A stretch of 23,250 nucleotides of DNA from a virus, in the IMG/VR virus record IMGVR_UViG_3300045303_000164, positions 1-23,250 of that record; one strand, 5' to 3'. Below, in pieces: positions 1,639 to 23,221 of this stretch (the stretch's first letter is position 1; the number at the start of each line of letters is the position of its first letter). A model generated the notes under the pieces. The model searched no databases, was not told the DNA's origin, and worked only from the letters and a program-made list of their open reading frames with translations. The position numbers and the translations under genes are program-made.

Positions 1639-2331
1639 TCAGAACGGGATCGCCTGCGCGTCGAGCCAGTCGATCAGCTCCGACGCCTGAGCCGCCTTCA
1701 ACTCGGCCCTGGACTCGATGCCGTACTCGCCCTGCAACCGCATCTTCAGCACCGCGACCCAATCCTCGGCGCCGGCGTAATCAGCCGGGATCGGCGTGGC
1801 GTTCGCGTTCAGGTCCTTGACGATCGCGTGCATCTTCGCCATCTGCGGCTTCGTCACCATTCGCGTCGACGAGCGCGGCGGCCTCGCGGCCATCGGCGGC
1901 CGCTCCGCCGAGCTCGGCTTCGGCTCCGACCTCGAGGGCGGTGTGGCGCCGGGCTCGTTCCCGTCGGTGTCCTCCTCCGACGCGATCCCCAACACCGCCG
2001 ACCAGGCGTACCTCCGGGCATACGTGATCGCCGCACCGAACCCCTGCATATCCAGCCGCCCCAGGAACAGCGGCGTGTCGTATACGCGCTCCTCACCCGT
2101 CGGGCCGTGCAGCAGCGTAGTTCTCAGAGCGGGCTCGCCGTGCTCGTCCCGGACAGGCGCCTGCGACATGCCCATGCCGTGCTTGTTCAGCACCGGCCGC
2201 GTCGCGGCGACCAGCGCATCGTGCGACACGAACCTGGAATGGAAATGCGGGTTCTCGCTGTCCTTCCCGACCGCCGGCAACTCGGCTTGAACCGCCACAA
2301 ATGCAGCAGCCCACGACCCGTGCTCGCTCAT
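1639..2331 (-). CDS. erf: ERF-family single-strand DNA annealing protein (230 aa)
   Basis: ERF-family recombinases anneal complementary single strands in phage recombination and in circularising or repairing replicating DNA. The family core is clear in residues 5-130: the N-terminal helix with ELPAVGKDSENPHF, then FVSHDALVAATRPVLNKHGM, a beta region with LRTTLLHGPTGEER, and the signature GFGAAITYARRYAWSAVLGI followed by EEDTDGNE. A Pro/Ser-rich linker (135-165) joins a C-terminal helical domain. The ATG at 2329-2331 is chosen because a GGGAGGG Shine-Dalgarno precedes it and the upstream stop overlaps it (ATGA). A longer reading from further upstream would only add low-complexity residues. The neighbour downstream is a replication-initiator-like gene. 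Confidence 0.85.
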   Translation of the reverse strand: MSEHGSWAAAFVAVQAELPAVGKDSENPHFHSRFVSHDALVAATRPVLNKHGMGMSQAPVRDEHGEPALRTTLLHGPTGEERVYDTPLFLGRLDMQGFGAAITYARRYAWSAVLGIASEEDTDGNEPGATPPSRSEPKPSSAERPPMAARPPRSSTRMVTKPQMAKMHAIVKDLNANATPIPADYAGAEDWVAVLKMRLQGEYGIESRAELKAAQASELIDWLDAQAIPF

Positions 2332-2444
2332 CCCGCGACCCTCCCAAGTAGGAACCCCAACACGAACGCCAACACCGCCACCAAACACACGACCGCCACC
2401 AGGCCATCCCGGTGCAGCCGGCCGCGCGGTGGGTCCTGGCGCAT
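2328..2444 (-). CDS. Single-pass membrane microprotein (38 aa)
   Basis: The sequence begins MRQDPPRGRLHRDG and then forms one hydrophobic helix (residues 15-33, with LVAVVCLVAVLAFVLGF), ending LLGRVAG. The basic N-terminus before the helix suggests N-in topology. Its ATG overlaps the stop of another membrane microprotein by one base (TGATG), and its stop overlaps the ERF start (ATGA). Two tandem single-helix proteins ahead of the recombination genes could form a superinfection-exclusion or membrane-anchoring pair, but no homology supports that. Confidence 0.55.
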   Translation of the reverse strand: MRQDPPRGRLHRDGLVAVVCLVAVLAFVLGFLLGRVAG

Positions 2445-2518
2445 CACCTGCCGCCACCCGGAACCAGAAGCAACAGCGCCAATACGATCAGTGCGGCGAT
2501 CAGGAACCCCGTCGTCAC
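2444..2518 (-). CDS. Single-pass membrane microprotein (24 aa)
   Basis: The 24 residues are almost entirely a hydrophobic helix: MTTGFLIAALIVLALLLLVP then GGGR. The GTG start overlaps the stop of the helical protein upstream (GTGA) and the stop abuts the next ATG (TGATG), so it fits the coupled-gene pattern exactly. It is well below usual gene-calling limits. No function can be given. The alternative is that it is only a translational link between two genes. Confidence 0.45.
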   Translation of the reverse strand: MTTGFLIAALIVLALLLLVPGGGR

Positions 2519-2781
2519 CCGACGCGCCTCGTCACGATCATCGGCAACGGTGCCGGCAAGTCCTCGACGCTCAACCGGAGCTCACGAGCGACACCCATCA
2601 GGGCGGTCGCGTCCGAGCGGAGCGCCGACGCAAGCGACCGGATCTCGCTGCAGCGGCCCGGGTTGCCGGCGTTCAACGCGATCGCATGCATATCGTCCAG
2701 GGCCACGAGGGCGCGGCCGATCGCCGCGACCTGCTCCTCCAAAGCGGCTGCTTGGTCGATGCGCCAGCCCGCGTCGCTCAC
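2515..2781 (-). CDS. Helical hypothetical protein (88 aa)
   Basis: I do not recognise it. From the GTG at 2779-2781 it reads MSDAGWRIDQAAALEEQVAA and continues as amphipathic helices (residues 8-80) with one Cys (GNPGRCSEIR), ending PMIVTRRVG. The start is chosen because it overlaps the stop of the Cys-rich small gene upstream (GTGA). A reading extended further upstream would merely translate that gene's 3' end in another frame. The 3' end overlaps a membrane microprotein gene. The 27 nt before the start form a divergent copy of the gene-boundary repeat of this region. Confidence 0.6.
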   Translation of the reverse strand: MSDAGWRIDQAAALEEQVAAIGRALVALDDMHAIALNAGNPGRCSEIRSLASALRSDATALMGVARELRLSVEDLPAPLPMIVTRRVG

Positions 2782-2909
2782 GGCCGGTAACACCAGTTCG
2801 ACGCGCACCACTTGCCGTGCAGGAGGATGCTTCCGTCGCAGTAGGGGTTGCCGTCCGGGCAACGCGCTTCCGGCCGTTTACACCAGTTCGGATCTGAGAG
2901 GCGCGTCAC
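2778..2909 (-). CDS. Cys-rich small protein opening with the boundary motif (43 aa)
   Basis: The GTG start opens with the array's conserved beginning, MTRLSDPNWCKRP. Instead of stopping after 13 codons the frame continues through a Cys-rich module (RCPDGNPYCDG, then HGKWC) and closes with a second, variant copy of the motif, ASNWCYRP. Five Cys lie at residues 10, 17, 24, 35 and 40, so a metal site or disulfides are possible. The stop overlaps the next start (GTGA). The start lies 16 nt from the start of an oppositely oriented gene, so both share one control region. This is the only copy in which the motif appears at both ends of one frame. Confidence 0.5.
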   Translation of the reverse strand: MTRLSDPNWCKRPEARCPDGNPYCDGSILLHGKWCASNWCYRP

Positions 2910-2911
2910 GC

Positions 2912-2917
2912 TAGAAT
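2912..2917 (+). promoter_or_regulatory. Putative -10 element of a leaderless plus-strand gene
   Basis: TAGAAT fits the actinobacterial -10 consensus TANNNT. Its last base is 7 nt before the GTG at 2925, so transcription would begin at or next to the start codon (leaderless mRNA). There is no Shine-Dalgarno. Any -35 would fall inside the boundary repeat at 2876-2909 and is weak (TCGGAT, 18-bp spacing). Confidence 0.45.
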
Positions 2918-2924
2918 CTGCTTC

Positions 2925-3110
2925 GTGAGCAACTACACGACCTGGGATCTCTACTCGCTCGGTACCCGTATCCTGGAATGGCGAGAGCGGGCCAAGCAGG
3001 CGGCCACGCTTCAGCAGCGCCGGTCGTACGAGGGCGAGATCGAAGTGATGGGCCGAGAGTTCGATCGGAAGTTCTTCACTGGGCCGTACTGGCCTGTCGA
3101 GATCCGCTAG
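2925..3110 (+). CDS. Inverted cassette: small hypothetical protein (61 aa)
   Basis: It is the only plus-strand gene in the accessory block. It begins MSNYTTWDLYSLGTRILEWR, continues as charged helix (residues 16-45) and ends in an aromatic segment FFTGPYWPVEIR. Codon third positions are GC-rich as expected for a real gene here, and the antisense readings are less protein-like. The GTG start is supported by a -10 box placed for a leaderless transcript. The TAG stop shares a CTAG palindrome with the stop of the opposing gene at 3107. Both flanks are boundary-repeat copies, so it looks like a single-gene cassette inserted in reverse. No family is recognised. Confidence 0.65.
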   Translation: MSNYTTWDLYSLGTRILEWRERAKQAATLQQRRSYEGEIEVMGREFDRKFFTGPYWPVEIR

Positions 3111-3130
3111 GCGCACGCCGCCACCTTCAC
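3102..3130. repeat. 29-bp boundary repeat, copy 1
   Basis: These 29 bases match 4961-4989 with a single mismatch (position 3126 T versus 4985 C). On the minus strand each copy holds the last codons of one gene (K/R-VAACA then TAG) and, overlapping, a GTG start reading MRLAD. Here the TAG also serves the opposing plus-strand gene through the shared CTAG. Confidence 0.85.
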
Positions 3131-3223
3131 TTGGGCCATGAGTTGGTGTCCGATCAGTTCGGTGTACGATCTTGAGAGCGGCGAGTCGGAGACGACCGAG
3201 ATCGTGGACGACTTCGTGTGCAT
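3107..3223 (-). CDS. Small hypothetical protein (38 aa) behind the Mom-like gene
   Basis: It lies in the same frame as the Mom-like gene, 27 nt after that gene's TGA. It could be a separate small gene from ATG 3221-3223 or a readthrough or degraded tail of the larger one. It reads MHTKSSTISVVSDSPLSRSY and ends QVKVAACA. The last seven residues and the following bases match the 3' end of the methyltransferase-like gene (4966-5595), although the rest of the two proteins is unrelated. That shared end belongs to the 29-bp repeat. There is no Shine-Dalgarno and no recognised domain. Confidence 0.35.
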   Translation of the reverse strand: MHTKSSTISVVSDSPLSRSYTELIGHQLMAQVKVAACA

Positions 3224-3250
3224 CACCGGTGGCTGTGACCCGAGTACCGA

Positions 3251-3748
3251 TCACGCGGTTGCCCCAATCGAGAGCTGTAGTTCCATCGGCCACTCCTTCG
3301 GCGGCATCGCATCGGGCAGCAGCTGCAACACGACGAGGTTCTTGTCCTTGGTTCGGCCGACGACCTCGAATCCGGCGCGGCGGAAGCAGCGGCCCGGGTC
3401 ACGCTTCCGGCGGACCTTCGTCTCGTCGACGAACGTCAGCATCCCGCCGACGGGCGCCTCAACGAACCAGGCGAGCGTCGCCGCGACAGCCTCGGTGATC
3501 AGCTCGCTCGAGAGGACGTCGCCCTCGTTGCGGAACAGGGTGCACACCCAGGCGTCGCCGTAGCCGTGGCGGGCCAGCTCGGCAAGCGGCCACGACGTGA
3601 CCCAGCCCGCGTCACCCGCGAGCGTGCGAAGGACGAGACACGCACCGGGCGCGACGAACTGCGGGTGGCCGACTGACTGGCGCGAGTAGTGCCGGTCGGC
3701 GAGGGCTCGCACGAGCGGGTCGGCACGCCATGAGACGACCCACCTCAC
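3251..3748 (-). CDS. Mom-like / GNAT-fold DNA-modification candidate (165 aa)
   Basis: The pattern resembles the Mom-type GNAT-like proteins seen in phages: an early RHYSRQ (residues 19-24), a core strand CLVLRTLAGDAGWVTSWP, FRNEG (72-76) with SSELI (80-84), a strand GGMLTFVDETKVRRK, and the conserved block KRDPGRCFRRAGF (115-127) ahead of GRTKDKNLVVLQL. Mu Mom converts adenine to a modified base that blocks restriction. I infer a similar nucleobase-modifying or acetyltransferase-like role, not proven here. The GTG start overlaps the stop of a 13-codon micro-ORF (GTGA). It shares the accessory operon with a C5-methyltransferase-like gene, which supports an anti-restriction theme. Confidence 0.55.
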   Translation of the reverse strand: MRWVVSWRADPLVRALADRHYSRQSVGHPQFVAPGACLVLRTLAGDAGWVTSWPLAELARHGYGDAWVCTLFRNEGDVLSSELITEAVAATLAWFVEAPVGGMLTFVDETKVRRKRDPGRCFRRAGFEVVGRTKDKNLVVLQLLPDAMPPKEWPMELQLSIGATA

Positions 3749-3786
3749 GAGCGTTTACACCAGTTCGAATCTGGTAGGAGGGTCAT
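3745..3786 (-). CDS. Boundary micro-ORF (13 aa)
   Basis: It encodes MTLLPDSNWCKRS. The ATG overlaps the stop of the coiled-coil gene upstream (ATGA) and the TGA overlaps the start of the Mom-like gene (GTGA). No other sequence separates the two large genes and no Shine-Dalgarno is present, so ribosomes would have to terminate and restart at each end. This copy also folds as a perfect 5-bp stem and 7-nt loop (ACCAG/CTGGT around TTCGAAT on the plus strand), like a tRNA T-arm. It may be a translated coupler, a regulatory leader, or only a recombination site. Confidence 0.4.
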   Translation of the reverse strand: MTLLPDSNWCKRS

Positions 3787-4454
3787 TCCTCACCGCCAGC
3801 CGCAATCGCGGCGCGAGCTATCTCCTGCGGAGACAGGTGATCCCACCAGACTGAGTTCTCATCCAGCCACCGGGGTCGTTCCTCATAAACCGGGCGGGCG
3901 GGATGGATGTCGCTCGCGATCTTCGTAAGCGCCTCGGCATACCGTTGAACCGCGGCCTCGGCATCGAGAGCGCGCTGGCGGAAGTGCTTGATCCCGGCTG
4001 GTGCTTCCGCCAGCAGCGCCTCGCACTCCTCGCGCAGACGCATGTACTCGTTGCTCAACTCTGTTTCGGTCAGCCTGATCGGGCCGTCTTCATGGAAGAA
4101 CGTGTAGATGGGTTCGGCCTCGCCGCTCACAGCACGCCTCTCCCGCTCCTTGGCTGCTTCAAGCTCAGCCTCGGCCTTATCGGCCGCCGCGCAGAACTCG
4201 ATAGCCGCCGCTTCGTGTTCTGACTTCGCGGCCTCAGACGCCTCCATGCGTTCGAGGTACTCGTTCGGATCGGCACGCCAATCGACGTGGCCGCACTCCG
4301 CGCAAGGCTCGCCGATGGCTCCGAGCATCGCGGCTCGTTCAGAGAGCAGCCGGTCTAGTGCAGCGTTAGCTTCGACGTATTTGTCCGCTCCTTCTTCGCT
4401 GTCGAAATACTCAGCGTTTTTCAGCATCTCGCGAATAAGGTCGGCGTCGGTCAC
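3783..4454 (-). CDS. Long-helix / coiled-coil hypothetical protein (223 aa)
   Basis: It is an acidic, Ala/Glu-rich protein beginning MTDADLIREMLKNAEYFDSE. Residues 15-50 and 65-115 are predicted long helices (EAAKSEHEAAAIEFCAAADK and similar), interrupted by a CxxC (ECAECGHVDW-like segment at about residues 50-60) that may hold one metal half-site. The middle (IYTFFHEDGPIRLTETELSN) is more globular, and the C-terminus WWDHLSPQEIARAAIAAG forms a last helix. Similar mosaic proteins occur in actinophage early regions without known function. The GTG start overlaps the stop of a micro-ORF upstream and the stop overlaps another one downstream. Confidence 0.7.
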   Translation of the reverse strand: MTDADLIREMLKNAEYFDSEEGADKYVEANAALDRLLSERAAMLGAIGEPCAECGHVDWRADPNEYLERMEASEAAKSEHEAAAIEFCAAADKAEAELEAAKERERRAVSGEAEPIYTFFHEDGPIRLTETELSNEYMRLREECEALLAEAPAGIKHFRQRALDAEAAVQRYAEALTKIASDIHPARPVYEERPRWLDENSVWWDHLSPQEIARAAIAAGGEE

Positions 4455-4501
4455 GGCTTGCCTTGCTGTCGTTTACACCAGTTCGAGTCTGAAAGGCTCA
4501 C
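4451..4501 (-). CDS. Boundary micro-ORF (16 aa)
   Basis: It encodes MSLSDSNWCKRQQGKP. GTGA overlaps exist at both ends, with the 97-aa gene upstream and the coiled-coil gene downstream. Relative to the other copies it lost one codon near the start and gained extra codons after CKR, yet it still keeps the frame and meets the next start exactly. Synonymous changes (GAC for GAT, CGA for CGG) within DS-NWCKR are consistent with selection on the peptide or frame. Confidence 0.4.
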   Translation of the reverse strand: MSLSDSNWCKRQQGKP

Positions 4502-4791
4502 GCCGTCTCCAATCGCCAGACGGGAAACGCGCCGGGGAAGTCACGGGCGCACTCGAACCAGCGGTCTTCTTCCCACACCACTTCACCGTCGAAGTTCCGG
4601 GCGAGTAACGGCTCGTAGCGCATCCATCGAGACAGACAGCGAACGTCAATCCAGCGACAGACCCATTGGTCAACGGCCCACCGGATCGCGTCCGACCGCT
4701 TCGGGTAATGCTCGCGCGGTAGCCATACTTCGCCGTCCTCAGACCAGACGCCCATCGCGTCGGGGATGACCACTTCGACCGCGCTTACCAC
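4498..4791 (-). CDS. Trp-rich hypothetical protein (97 aa)
   Basis: I do not recognise it. It begins MVSAVEVVIPDAMGVWSEDG and is rich in Trp/Arg (EVWLPREHYPKRSDAIRWAV, then VCRWIDVRCLSRWMRYEP) with acidic residues near the end (VVWEEDRWFECARDFPG). The length and alpha/beta mix suggest a small single domain. The GTG start is fixed by its overlap with the stop of a micro-ORF. The stop overlaps the next micro-ORF. Nothing in the sequence indicates catalysis or membrane location. Confidence 0.6.
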   Translation of the reverse strand: MVSAVEVVIPDAMGVWSEDGEVWLPREHYPKRSDAIRWAVDQWVCRWIDVRCLSRWMRYEPLLARNFDGEVVWEEDRWFECARDFPGAFPVWRLETA

Positions 4792-4826
4792 CGTTTACGC
4801 CCGTGCGAATCCGCTAGGCGCGTCAT
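4785..4826 (-). CDS. Boundary micro-ORF (13 aa), diverged
   Basis: It encodes MTRLADSHGRKRW. The ATG overlaps the stop of the 50-aa CGH-type gene (ATGA) and its TAA lies 4 nt inside the next gene's GTG, a 7-nt overlap. Several substitutions change N-W-C to H-G-R, but the length stays at 13 codons as in two other copies and the K-R position is kept. Confidence 0.35.
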   Translation of the reverse strand: MTRLADSHGRKRW

Positions 4827-4975
4827 CGCTTCTTCCGCCTCGTGCCCCACCTGATCCTGATGCCGCCGTGCTCTCCCGCGTCGTGGAACCCCTGATGGCC
4901 TGAAACAAGACAACAGCGGTGTCCGGCGAACTGAGACGTACAGCGCGGGATGCGGATCGAATCCGCTAGGCGCAC
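4823..4975 (-). CDS. Small Cys/His protein with GH-x-C and GHxGxH motifs (50 aa)
   Basis: It opens with the boundary beginning MRLADSIRIPRC and continues into a Cys/His-rich module: FAGHRCC, then SGHQGFHDAGEHGG and IRIRWGTRRKKR. The pattern C-x6-GH-x-C with a following GHxGxH and a Trp resembles small actinobacterial metal-binding proteins of unknown role. The basic tail suggests nucleic-acid contact. The GTG start lies 10 nt inside the methyltransferase-like gene, and the stop overlaps a micro-ORF (ATGA). It shows how the shared beginning can be joined in frame to a full small protein. Confidence 0.6.
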   Translation of the reverse strand: MRLADSIRIPRCTSQFAGHRCCLVSGHQGFHDAGEHGGIRIRWGTRRKKR

Positions 4976-4989
4976 GCCGCCACCCTCAC
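4961..4989. repeat. 29-bp boundary repeat, copy 2
   Basis: It is the partner of 3102-3130 with one mismatch. It spans the last codons of the methyltransferase-like gene and the overlapping start of the 50-aa gene. The upstream genes at the two sites are otherwise unrelated, so the shared stretch marks a junction rather than a gene duplication. Confidence 0.85.
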
Positions 4990-5595
4990 GCTGCGCGCCA
5001 TCTCGAGCAGCGCGTCACGGAACCCAGGCGGCGTCGGGCTGCTCGACCCTCGCGGCATGTGCTCGGTGAAGAACCCCAGGCCGAGCCGTTGCGCCCGGTG
5101 ATGATCGAACGCCGAAACCTGGGCGGTCGGCTTCGGCTCCGCCCAGTTCATCTCGACCGGGTCGACTCCGACCGCATACAGCCAGGTGCGCTTCCGGCAC
5201 GGATGACCGTAGGCCGACTGAGACACCTCGGTCACGATCCCCGGGTCGAACAGGCTCTGCGTCCATCCGTGCCTACCGGGTACGGGCAGGTCGTATTTCG
5301 TCCAGGCGAGCGAGTAGGCGGGATGCTCCAGCACGCCGCCGAACCTGCGAACAGCCGCGAGCGCCGCAGCGAACGTGCCTCCGTCGTTACCGACCCGGTA
5401 CTTCTCGCCGAGGCGCTCGAGGTGTAGATGCTGAACGAGCGGCGCCAACTGACACCAACGCTGGCACGGCGGGTGCGCCACCACCGGCCACGGCCCCGCG
5501 TACAGCCGGGCGTCGCGCATCTCGTCCCACACATCGACGTCCTCGAGGCCGGCGTAGACGCCGTTCGGGTCGACGTAAAGCGCGGCGACCCTCAC
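4966..5595 (-). CDS. C5-cytosine methyltransferase-like protein, divergent (209 aa)
   Basis: Residues 37-48 (PVVAHPPCQRWC) resemble motif IV of C5-methyltransferases with the catalytic Pro-Cys. GGVLEHPAYSLAW (86-98) sits where motif VI (ENV-like) is expected, and QSAYGHPCRKRTWLYAV (126-142) resembles motif VIII. The usual FxGxGG cofactor loop is missing: the N-terminus reads MRVAALYVDPNGVYAGLEDV. Hence it may be a degenerate or alternative member that binds or modifies DNA differently. The GTG start overlaps the stop of a micro-ORF (GTGA). With the Mom-like gene it suggests DNA modification against restriction. Catalytic activity is uncertain. Confidence 0.55.
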   Translation of the reverse strand: MRVAALYVDPNGVYAGLEDVDVWDEMRDARLYAGPWPVVAHPPCQRWCQLAPLVQHLHLERLGEKYRVGNDGGTFAAALAAVRRFGGVLEHPAYSLAWTKYDLPVPGRHGWTQSLFDPGIVTEVSQSAYGHPCRKRTWLYAVGVDPVEMNWAEPKPTAQVSAFDHHRAQRLGLGFFTEHMPRGSSSPTPPGFRDALLEMARSVRVAACA

Positions 5596-5633
5596 GGCCG
5601 TTTACCCTGGTTCGAATCTCCTAGGCCGGTCAT
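5592..5633 (-). CDS. Boundary micro-ORF (13 aa)
   Basis: It encodes MTGLGDSNQGKRP. The ATG overlaps the stop of the 42-aa gene (ATGA) and the TGA overlaps the methyltransferase-like start (GTGA). W-C is replaced by Q-G, but the 13-codon length, the D-S-N and the K-R remain. An internal AGGAG lies too far from the next start to act as its ribosome site. Confidence 0.4.
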   Translation of the reverse strand: MTGLGDSNQGKRP

Positions 5634-5758
5634 GGCCCGAACCGCTCGAGGTAGTAGAACCCGATCGGATTGTTCGGGTCGTCGCCGTAGATGTACTTCA
5701 GCACCGAGAGCCGGATCTCTCTCTGGAACGGCGAGTACCTGTCCCAGTGGGGTTTCAC
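5630..5758 (-). CDS. Small hypothetical protein (42 aa)
   Basis: From the GTG at 5756-5758 it reads MKPHWDRYSPFQREIRLSVL and then YIYGDDPNNPIGFYYLERFG, an aromatic, compact small protein with no recognised motif. The start overlaps the stop of the 41-aa reading frame upstream (GTGA) and the stop overlaps a micro-ORF (ATGA). Good third-position GC supports translation. Confidence 0.5.
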   Translation of the reverse strand: MKPHWDRYSPFQREIRLSVLKYIYGDDPNNPIGFYYLERFGP

Positions 5759-5880
5759 GCCAGAATCCCCAGATATGCAGGGGTTTTAGAGGAAACGCCT
5801 AGGAGATTGAAACAGCAGTTCGAATCTGATCGGGCAGAATGGCTTGAAACCGCCCATCGGGCAGAAAACGCCTTTGTCAT
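5755..5880 (-). CDS. Candidate first gene of the accessory operon (41 aa)
   Basis: From ATG 5878-5880 it reads MTKAFSARWAVSSHSARSDS, then NCCFNLLGVSSKTPAYLGIL. The internal DSNCC corresponds to the boundary motif D-S-N-W-C, and its TGA overlaps the next start (GTGA). The repeated SAR comes from an 11-bp direct repeat. AGGAG lies 12 nt before the ATG, slightly far. The stretch may instead be the phage attachment region that merely happens to be open, so coding status is uncertain. Confidence 0.35.
   Translation of the reverse strand: MTKAFSARWAVSSHSARSDSNCCFNLLGVSSKTPAYLGILA
5793..5873. repeat. Cluster of short direct repeats, candidate attP / arm-site region
   Basis: Three pairs of direct repeats lie within 81 bp: ATCGGGCAGAA at 5829-5839 and 5856-5866, AAACGCCT at 5793-5800 and 5866-5873, and TTGAAAC at 5807-5813 and 5844-5850. 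Between them sits CAGTTCGAATCTG, which resembles a tRNA T-arm. The cluster is beside the integrase and excisionase-type genes. Integrase arm sites and a tRNA-derived core would look like this, but the host attachment site is not visible, so the assignment is inference. Confidence 0.4.
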
Positions 5881-5940
5881 TCAGTTGCCCCGCTCCTGTA
5901 CTGATAGAGCCAAATCGACTGGGGATTGAGGTGTTGCGCG
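5881..5940. promoter_or_regulatory. Divergent control region between accessory operon and HTH gene
   Basis: This 60-bp gap separates the first minus-strand accessory gene from the plus-strand HTH gene, so it must contain the start signals of at least the HTH gene. GAGG lies 7-8 nt before ATG 5941. I see no convincing -35/-10 pair on either strand. Confidence 0.3.
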
Positions 5941-6234
5941 ATGACGAACAGCGATCACCCGGAGAGGTTGCTGACGCCTCAAGACGTCACTGACCTGATC
6001 GGGCATTGGCTCAAGGTCGCCGGGCCGCCACCGAGCCAGGTGACGACAGCAGGGATTCCTGGGCGGCTGCTCACTGCTCGGCAGGTAGCCGAGCTGCTCG
6101 GCTTCTCGATGGCCACGATCATCCGTTGGTGGGAGAGGGGTGAGATTCCCGGCTACCGCATCGGTGGTCGCATCCGATTCCGCGAGGACGAGCTCGCGGA
6201 ATGGCTTGAATCGAGACGATCGCCGAACGCCTAG
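5941..6234 (+). CDS. Excisionase-type helix-turn-helix protein (97 aa)
   Basis: Residues 42-93 form a MerR/Xis-type winged HTH: RLLTARQVAELLGFSMATII, then RWWERGEIPGYRIGGRIRF and DELAEWLESRR. The N-terminus carries a partial second copy (RLLTPQDVTDLIG, residues 9-21), as if the first helix-turn had been duplicated. Such proteins bind DNA as recombination directionality factors or small regulators. The ATG is preferred over an upstream TTG because GAGG precedes it. It converges on the integrase with 2 bp between the stops, and another excisionase-type gene lies on the integrase's other side. It could therefore be Xis or a Cro-like switch protein. Confidence 0.75.
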   Translation: MTNSDHPERLLTPQDVTDLIGHWLKVAGPPPSQVTTAGIPGRLLTARQVAELLGFSMATIIRWWERGEIPGYRIGGRIRFREDELAEWLESRRSPNA

Positions 6235-6236
6235 GG

Positions 6237-7250
6237 TCACAGCCGCGCCACCTTCGCGGCGAGGTCTTCGAACTCGATCCGGCCGTACTGCCGCACCGTC
6301 GTCTCCGGGCTCTCATGGCCGAGCAGCGCCTGGCGCTCCTCGAGGTCGAGGCCGCCCTGGCGGAGCCACCAGTGGTAGGTGTGGCGGGTCTGATGCGGAT
6401 TCAGGTACCGGACACCGGCGAGCTCGAGCTTGTCGCGATACCAGCGCTCGAAAGTGGTGTCGCCGATCGGGTCGCCGCGGCGGCGCCGGTCGCCAGGGGC
6501 GTACCGCTTCCGGTACCAGAGATGATCTGACGGCTCGAGGCGCTCGAGGAGGTCGAGGTCGGCGACCGCGACCGCTACATCCGGGGTGAACGGCACCGGG
6601 CGGTCCTTGTCGCCCTTGCCGCTGTAGACCATCAGCCGGCCGCGGTTCAGGTCGATGTGGCTGCGGCGAAGATGGCGGGCCTCGCTGCGGCGAAGGCCGG
6701 TGCCGAACAGGATCGCGAACAGCGGCCCGTCCGGGACGGGGAGCGCGACCAGGATCGCGACCTCCTCCGGCGAGAAGATGTCTTTGGGGCGGCGGTGTCC
6801 TGCGCTCATCTGCGGAACCTTCCTCATCGGTGACCTGTCAATTCGTTCGTCGCGCACCGCCCACTCGAACAGGCTGTTGTAGATCGAGCGGGGGATGTAG
6901 CGGCTGCGGGGGGGAACCGCGCGGAGCTCGGCGTTGATGTCGTCCGCGGTGAACTCCGCCAGGGTCTTGCCGGGGTGGCTGCGTAGCAGCGGCGCGACAC
7001 CCCGCTCGTAGGCGTAGAGGGTGCGGGTCGACTTGCCGCGCAGGTCGAGATGATCGACCCACGACTCAACGTCGGGGTAGGCAGCCGCGGTTTCGTGGCG
7101 GCGGTCACGCGCGGGCATGGCATCCCCGATCAGTGCTAGGAGCGCCTGCGTAAGATCGCTGGTGCATAGGGGCTGGTACCTCCTGTGCCACGAGCCGGGC
7201 CGTTTGCGCGGCGCCGGCTCTTTTGCGTTGTCGGGCACAAGGGTACTCAC
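6237..7250 (-). CDS. int: Tyrosine-family site-specific integrase (337 aa)
   Basis: It catalyses integration and excision by strand exchange through a phosphotyrosine. The catalytic set is complete: Arg187 (TGLRRSEARHL), Lys212 (SGKGDKDRPVPF), His286 and Arg289 (NPHQTRHTY), His312 (LLGHESPETT) and Tyr322 (VRQYGRI). An N-terminal core-binding SAM-like domain covers residues 55-140 (SWVDHLDLRGKSTRTLYAYE). The first 50 residues are basic and may bind arm sites. The GTG start overlaps the stop of the excisionase-type gene (GTGA), so the two are co-expressed. The putative attP repeats lie about 0.4 kb downstream, beyond the converging HTH gene. The intact catalytic residues suggest a functional integrase. 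Confidence 0.95.
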   Translation of the reverse strand: MSTLVPDNAKEPAPRKRPGSWHRRYQPLCTSDLTQALLALIGDAMPARDRRHETAAAYPDVESWVDHLDLRGKSTRTLYAYERGVAPLLRSHPGKTLAEFTADDINAELRAVPPRSRYIPRSIYNSLFEWAVRDERIDRSPMRKVPQMSAGHRRPKDIFSPEEVAILVALPVPDGPLFAILFGTGLRRSEARHLRRSHIDLNRGRLMVYSGKGDKDRPVPFTPDVAVAVADLDLLERLEPSDHLWYRKRYAPGDRRRRGDPIGDTTFERWYRDKLELAGVRYLNPHQTRHTYHWWLRQGGLDLEERQALLGHESPETTVRQYGRIEFEDLAAKVARL

Positions 7251-21454: not shown

Positions 21455-23221
21455 TCAACTGATCGAGGGGACGGGTGTTGGCCGGTGCGCCGCCGACACA
21501 GCCCAGACGAGAGCCTTCACGAGATGCGGGGCGCCGTGACCCGGGATCAGGAACAACCCCGACGGCATCTCCTTGACCCTGGCGAGGGCGACCGCCCTGT
21601 CGAGGTCGCGCCGTTCGCCGTCGTGGACGAGCATCCCGCCGAGAGCGAGATCCCTGAGCAGCGGCAACCCCGTCCGGGTCTCGGTGCCGCCGGCACGAGA
21701 AGGGGGCGGCGAGAACCCGCGCGGCACCCTCGCGATCAGCGACGCACCGACGTGGAGCGCCCGCAACGGGCGGACCGCAGCGACGGCCTCGACCTGGGCG
21801 ACGGCCTCGTCCCAGGTTTCGCAGCGGCACCCGTCGAGCTCGAGGCGGCCGTCGGCGGTTTTCGAGACGAACGCGGCGGCGGCGCCCAGCCCGGCGTCGT
21901 CCTCCAACGCGGCCCACACCGGCCCTGTCGAGGGTGCTTCCGGGTCTGCGAGGTCGGCCCAGACACCGGGCGGCAGCAGATCCTCGACCCCGGCGGAGTA
22001 GTCCGCGAGCCGGACGGGCCACTCGTTCAGCCATTGCGACCGGAACGACTCCGCCGGGTCGGGCTCGTCCTCAGCCCGCAACGTCCCCGCGAGCGCCGCC
22101 TCCAGCTGCGCGCGGATCGTTTTTTCGCGGCGCGGCGACCAGTGCGCCGACGATGCCCGCCAAACCGTCTCGTCGGCCATGTCGGCGCCACGCGGCGCGG
22201 ACCACTCGAGCAGCAGGCTCCCGTCACCGTCCTCCAATCCGGCGACGGCTGCGGCCCGCCACGAGAGCATCAGCGACGTCGACCGCCGATGCGCCGTACT
22301 GACGAGCAGCAGCTGCGGCTGTTCCCGCTCGACCATCGTCGGGACGATCCCTTCCTCGATCACCTCCGGCGCGACCTTCCACACCTCGTCGGCGACCGCG
22401 AACGGCACCGAGAACCCGAACGCCGCCATCACCGGCGCCTGCAGCATCCACCGCGACGCGGACGCGCGATGCTCGATATGGACGTCGCCGTTCGCCTCAC
22501 GAACCTTGTACTCGTCCGGCCGGACCTTCGCCCACAACCTGGCCGGCCGCTGCACCTCGATACAGACCCGCAGGTCCTTCCCGGTGTGCAAAACATCCTG
22601 AGCCTCACCGAAATGCTCGGCCTTGTGGATCCGCCAGAAGCACAACTCGCGAAGCAGCCACGATTTGCCGAGCTGCCGCGGCATCGTCAACAGGATCGTC
22701 TCCCAGCACAACCGGCCGTCCGCGTCGATCTCAAGCATCCGGGTCGCGGCCAGCTTCTGCCACCACCGCAACGGGCGCCCCGAACGAGCCTCGGCCCAAC
22801 GAATGAAGTCCGGCCCCAACGAGCCCACCGCCCGCTCATGGGGAACCGACATCAGCCTCGGCCACGCCGCGTCGGCCGGCACCCGCCTCAATCCCCGCAG
22901 CCACGGCACCCGCCAACGCTCATCGCCCCACACGAGGCCATCGCGCTCGACCTCGGCCTCAGCCACCGCCGGCGCCAGCAACTGCCGCCGCGCCGTCGCC
23001 CGGTTACACGCCCTGTGCTCAGGCCCCGCATACAACGACCGTGACCCGTCGACATGCCCCAGATCCCACGGCTCGCCCGGCAAGATCAACTCGCCGCAAC
23101 GAGCACACGTCACCCCACCCGCGAGAACCAACCCCTCCAGCCGCTCACGAAGCCCCTGATGCGGGCCGCCGTAGCCGCGAGCAGCCGTACGCGGCCGAGG
23201 TCTAGCGGCTACAGGAGACAC
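21455..23221 (-). CDS. terL: Large terminase subunit with N-terminal HNH domain (588 aa)
   Basis: The ATP-driven packaging motor and headful or cos nuclease. Walker A is PRQLGKS (residues 181-187), Walker B is FAVADE (274-279), and the coupling motif LLLVSTAH is at 304-311. Acidic residues in [16 protein letters not shown] (436-451) probably belong to the RNase H-like nuclease. Unusually, residues 22-80 form an HNH/treble-clef module: CARCG (Cys39, Cys42), PWDLGHVDG (His56) and [10 protein letters not shown] (His69, Cys72, Asn73). HNH endonucleases are normally a separate gene beside the terminase. The GTG start has no good ribosome site. I see no frameshift between the two domains. The right edge of the window is 29 nt upstream. 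Confidence 0.88.

Follow-up and report, generated by a model that had tools for sequence, protein, structure and literature searches.

The ninR region of lambdoid phages is an example of phage boundary sequences, the palindromic elements of Rickettsia are hairpin-forming inserts repeated in frame within genes, and the stoperators of cluster A phages are sites spread genome-wide. One proposal for how phage mosaicism arises invokes short conserved boundary sequences (cited in PMC3029335). The start-associated sequences of cluster K are 13 bp long and lie upstream of the start, at the ribosome-binding position (PMC3203893). In integrons, short ORFs (ORF-11 in attI1, others inside attC sites) are believed to hand ribosomes on to the following gene through termination-reinitiation (PMC8876359). 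The dif modules of Acinetobacter plasmids are small accessory units that lie between repeated sites and are reshuffled by dif/Xer (PMC13141974, PMC6449649).

The DNA analysed here, which we call the window, comprises all 23,250 bases of IMG/VR record IMGVR_UViG_3300045303_000164 and encodes an integrase, ERF, a major head protein, a portal and a terminase; here and throughout, genes are ORF predictions from metagenomic contigs. The terminase ORF has matches in phages of Mycobacterium, Arthrobacter and Gordonia. A single ORF at 21455-23221 (minus strand) has an N-terminus matching an HNH endonuclease family, with the terminase large subunit farther along. An array of small ORFs on the minus strand is bounded by a tyrosine integrase gene (6237-7250, minus strand), for which no close relatives were found in the viral contigs searched, and, downstream, by the gene for the ERF single-strand annealing protein (1639-2457, minus strand). 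Between integrase and array, a helix-turn-helix ORF on the plus strand (5926-6234; HTH_17, weak AlpA) is probably an excisionase or regulator, and the overlying minus-strand ORF 5881-6240 is therefore unlikely to be a gene. The array itself consists, in minus-strand order, of a 42-aa ORF with no family (5630-5758), a phrog_12600 gene (4966-5595), ORFs of 97 aa (4498-4791) and 223 aa (3783-4454), again with no family, and a phrog_24928 gene (3251-3748).

At the gene junctions of this array, between 2775 and 5836 on the minus strand, a repeat of ~45 bp is present in five strong and four weaker copies. Its consensus, GATTCGAACTGGTGTAAACG, occurs five times on the minus strand with at most three mismatches and not once in 100 shuffles; a 42-column matrix built from the five strong copies gives those same copies 47-60 bits, and no other position reaches 3. 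Four copies form micro-ORFs that an earlier note on this DNA had placed at gene junctions, with coordinates that proved exact. All lie on the minus strand, each ending in a stop: copy D (5592-5633; 13 codons, MTGLGDSNQGKRP), copy C (4785-4826; 13 codons, MTRLADSHGRKRW), copy B (4451-4501; 16 codons, MSLSDSNWCKRQQGKP) and copy A (3745-3786; 13 codons, MTLLPDSNWCKRS). The same note described each as starting inside the upstream stop and stopping inside the downstream start. Three copies conform, with 4-nt overlaps on both sides: copies D and A have an ATGA overlap upstream and a GTGA overlap downstream (for copy D with ORFs 5630-5758 and 4966-5595, respectively), and copy B has a GTGA overlap on each side. 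Copy C, by contrast, begins in an ATGA overlap but ends with TAA in a 7-nt overlap with the downstream ORF 4498-4791, its stop not lying within the start codon. Variant beginnings of a 43-aa and a 50-aa ORF, also claimed, are present: copy E (2865-2909, minus strand) opens the 43-aa ORF 2778-2909 (MTRLSDPNWCKRP...), and a left-half copy, G (4952-4979, minus strand), opens the 50-aa ORF 4823-4975 (MRLADSIRIP...). Both diverged copies that had been proposed exist as well. One, the right-half copy F (2775-2805, minus strand; SNWCYRP and a stop), closes the ORF that copy E opens; the other, at 5811-5836, was found to be non-coding and part of an integrase-side element. A further left-half copy, H (3102-3117, minus strand; CGTGCGCCTAGCGGAT), is absent from the earlier note; it stands at the start of a 112-aa ORF running down to 2778, and this ORF (3116-2778) takes in H, E and F without a change of frame.

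The exact 20-mer at 3752-3771 also occurs in 28 genome contigs, in 27 of which its context places it in a tRNA-Cys gene (ARAGORN agreed for 13 of the 14 checked); these genes are mainly from Bacteroidota. It has no match in the viral contigs searched. A tRNA origin of the copy at this position was rejected: no tRNA/Rfam family was detected in the window or the array, and the T-stem is not kept in the array copies. We treat the match to tRNA-Cys as chance around the palindrome TTCGAA.

A search for the consensus in relatives, which had been suggested as a check, recovered the repeat as a family. Degenerate patterns were run over high-G+C viral contigs and followed by an HMM built from the copies, which yielded 80 array copies in 19 IMG/VR records (window counted), together with 11 copies of a related integrase-adjacent element. 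Every array copy belongs to an array of small genes, which in most cases is flanked by the integrase on one side and by ERF/RecT recombination genes on the other; in ten records a RecT-like or ERF protein, assigned by homology, follows the array or a single element. Within a record, copies share one orientation and cluster, with eight in the window (element P, described below, included) over 3.1 kb and up to eight in others. Arrays with two or more copies extend over ~0.4-3.5 kb, and in the sequence searched the copies are confined to a single array. Array genes include Dam-type DNA adenine methyltransferases in L076 (13631-14347, minus strand) and L080 (4841-5338, minus strand), the latter adjoining a phrog_12600 gene.

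The repeat is open in a single frame. Read as L-[A/P]-D-[S/Q]-N-x-x-x-R across 33 nt, it contains a stop in 0 of the 80 array copies, against 30 +/- 3 stop-containing copies after column shuffling, a procedure that ignores haplotypes, applied to copies that share ancestry and hence are not independent events; the remaining two frames carry stops in 61 and 43 of 80 copies. Upstream, RTGAs were counted if they lay at most 21 nt away and closed an open frame of 35 codons or more; all 46 share the repeat's frame, at a spacing of 12, 15 or 18 nt, and none falls in the other two frames. For all 46, the repeat begins at the start codon. Downstream, the frame is closed within 13 codons in 38 of 80 copies, mostly by the TGA within a GTGA from which the next ORF starts, and in the other 42 it stays open into a longer ORF, the next gene beginning MTxLxDSNPSKR. 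Proline after D-S-N marks the split: 30 of the 33 copies that have it are leaders, compared with 12 of 47 otherwise (Fisher p 4e-9, copies not being independent). The micro-ORF and the N-terminal leader are thus alternative states of a single element. The idea of a frame-kept micro-ORF thus stands as regards the single, stop-free frame in phase with the upstream RTGA, but the micro-ORF is not the general form. Two or three in-frame copies also occur within single ORFs, in the window (3116-2778) and in L077, L083, L086 and L087. Use of dN/dS as a sign of a selected peptide was discarded, as the 1.7-fold synonymous excess of the repeat frame is nearly matched in frame +1 (1.6-fold), and so is not specific to the coding frame. 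Shine-Dalgarno core matches of at least 4 nt precede 27 of 34 downstream starts, compared with ~20% at random positions, which would allow ordinary initiation there.

The earlier note had read the repeat as either a translational-coupling element or a recombination boundary enforcing in-frame joins, and comparison among phages supports the boundary reading. Homology blocks end within 10 nt of a repeat in 29 of 116 cases, above the 15.8 +/- 3.7 for random positions (the blocks not being independent), and some genes recur between repeats with differing neighbours. L079 and L082 have in common one 39-aa gene and both flanking repeats, at 84.6%, with the shared stretch ending no more than 8 bp from the outer repeat edges. 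The window, L080 and L086 each have a phrog_12600 gene between repeats, and L086 and the window have it in common from the gene start into the repeat that follows. On either side of the array L080 and L103 are 85-88% alike; inside it, no DNA match of at least 70 nt was found between them. The conserved next gene starts in L103 at the RTGA closing a repeat, and in L080 and L084 at an RTGA common with a different gene. Breakpoints fall at the gene start, the core or the right edge of the repeat, and so define no single crossover point.

The integrase-side element, termed P, occupies 5760-5836 of the window (minus strand) and consists of CAGATTCGAACTGCTGTTTCAATC followed by the terminator-like AAAACCCCTGCATATCTGGGG; it is non-coding and, set against the P elements of other phages, a candidate attP. 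In many records element P, ~73 nt long and located downstream of the integrase, has a terminator-like hairpin at its end. Among L078, L080, L087, L088, L091, L098 and L103 it is 69-90% alike even where the adjoining DNA does not align. Searches of named phages and plasmids gave short tRNA-like or terminator-like matches only. In six records, and in part also in the window, the reverse complement of P reads like the 3' end of a tRNA, and the nearest annotated actinobacterial match is a tRNA-Thr(cgt), at 24 of 26 bases, which in a Mycobacterium abscessus prophage immediately follows the integrase; where P is tRNA-Thr-like, it is therefore probably attP. L098 and L108 have a fragment of a tmRNA 3' end between integrase and P, so that P is not attP everywhere; the arrangement suggests that attachment in this branch is at ssrA, while its relatives have a tRNA-Thr-like site.

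We consider it somewhat better than an even bet that the repeat is a translated gene-boundary joint, at which genes are exchanged by annealing recombination while translation is kept across the joint. The joint would start at the RTGA where the upstream stop overlaps the start codon, and would then be read in one fixed frame that is either soon closed by another stop/start overlap (micro-ORF) or runs on as the next gene (leader). The phage annealing recombinases, ERF or RecT, may exchange genes at the short homologies of the repeats; ERF and RecT pairs give efficient recombination of 78%-identical DNA (PMC3945230). With the frame intact in every copy, and the overlaps usually so, we infer that a newly joined gene would be translated by termination-reinitiation in the micro-ORF state or by read-through in the leader state, without a strong ribosome-binding site of its own. 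Stop-start coupling and annealing at the repeats are both predictions from sequence. As one sequence family marks the accessory-array joints of 19 records and keeps frame, the idea of translation-safe recombination joints becomes directly testable: genes may be exchanged at the repeat without breaking translation, and the joint could anchor searches for small phage genes, for example methyltransferases and genes of unknown function.

Several of these observations would also fit a repeat serving chiefly in translation initiation or as an early-codon element, comparable to the start-associated sequences of cluster K, with the recombination boundary incidental. Its beginning at the start codon, its slightly lower G+C relative to the flanks (0.62 versus 0.65-0.66) and its restriction to a non-structural array are as such an element would have them; breakpoint enrichment and the recurrence of genes with different neighbours, however, are not predicted by it, and we regard it as unlikely. 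A rather doubtful alternative makes the repeats recombination sites of the phage integrase, in an integron-like or dif-module-like cassette array with element P as the primary site. P lies just downstream of the integrase and the array copies resemble it in the left arm and outer bases; a 30-bp GCC..GGC outline is found in 8 of 11 P elements and 33 of 80 array copies, and the match of P to a tRNA-Thr 3' end in part of the records, together with the M. abscessus tRNA-Thr, points the same way. The inner inverted repeat AGCGG..CCGCT, present in 8 of 11 P elements, nevertheless occurs in 0 of 80 array copies, and the array type does not track the integrase clade, the same types being found with tRNA-Thr-like P and with the tmRNA-type site; on these two grounds the integrase is disfavoured as the shuffling enzyme. 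The tmRNA 3'-end piece that L098 and L108 hold separately beside P, and breakpoints not limited to the core, also speak against it. Decidedly improbable, in our estimate, is an integron-like platform for cassettes, carried by the phage, whose att-derived joints would double as translated couplers, so that small genes captured at a site descended from the phage's tRNA attachment site would stay translated in any order.

Two further readings find little room. As several copies can share an ORF, always in frame, the repeat could be an in-frame selfish element like the palindromic elements of Rickettsia, with which it has in common a position in frame in genes; its copies, however, lie at the gene boundaries of one array only, without the inner stem (0 of 80), and fold no better than background (mean -9.1 versus -10.7 kcal/mol), a result that also led us to reject a hairpin function of the array copies. 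We judge this reading very improbable. Binding sites of a phage regulator, like the stoperators of cluster A, would share the single orientation, the gene boundaries and the temperate phages, but the copies are confined to one array of ~0.4-3.5 kb in the sequence searched rather than spread over the genome, and they keep a single reading frame that a binding site does not need; such sites strike us as scarcely credible here.

The translated joint that we favour can be set beside the systems introduced above. Like the cluster K sequences, the repeat is found at non-structural gene starts, mostly in one orientation; the cluster K sequence itself, GGGATAGGAGCCC, lies just upstream of the start codon, whereas the repeat begins at the start codon, has another consensus and is open as coding sequence. 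In function, its nearest parallel is with integrons (PMC8876359), whose attI1 and attC sites likewise place a short ORF at a cassette joint. Unlike in integrons, the genes here overlap by 4 nt; the window integrase scores 55 bits against the integron integrase model TIGR02249, whose cut-off is 265, and the integron core GTTRRRY occurs at 0 of 80 joints on the gene strand and 2 of 80 on the other. As with dif modules, small accessory units lie between repeated sites, but here all sites point one way and the recombinase is a candidate only. In kind, the repeat appears nearest to the phage boundary sequences cited in PMC3029335, in a translated form for which a limited literature search found no description. 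It differs from them in being open in one frame, in forming micro-ORFs or leaders and in being common to many junctions per genome. It resembles them in being a short conserved sequence at gene boundaries where modules would be exchanged by general recombination, and at which inter-phage homology changes (29/116 versus 15.8).
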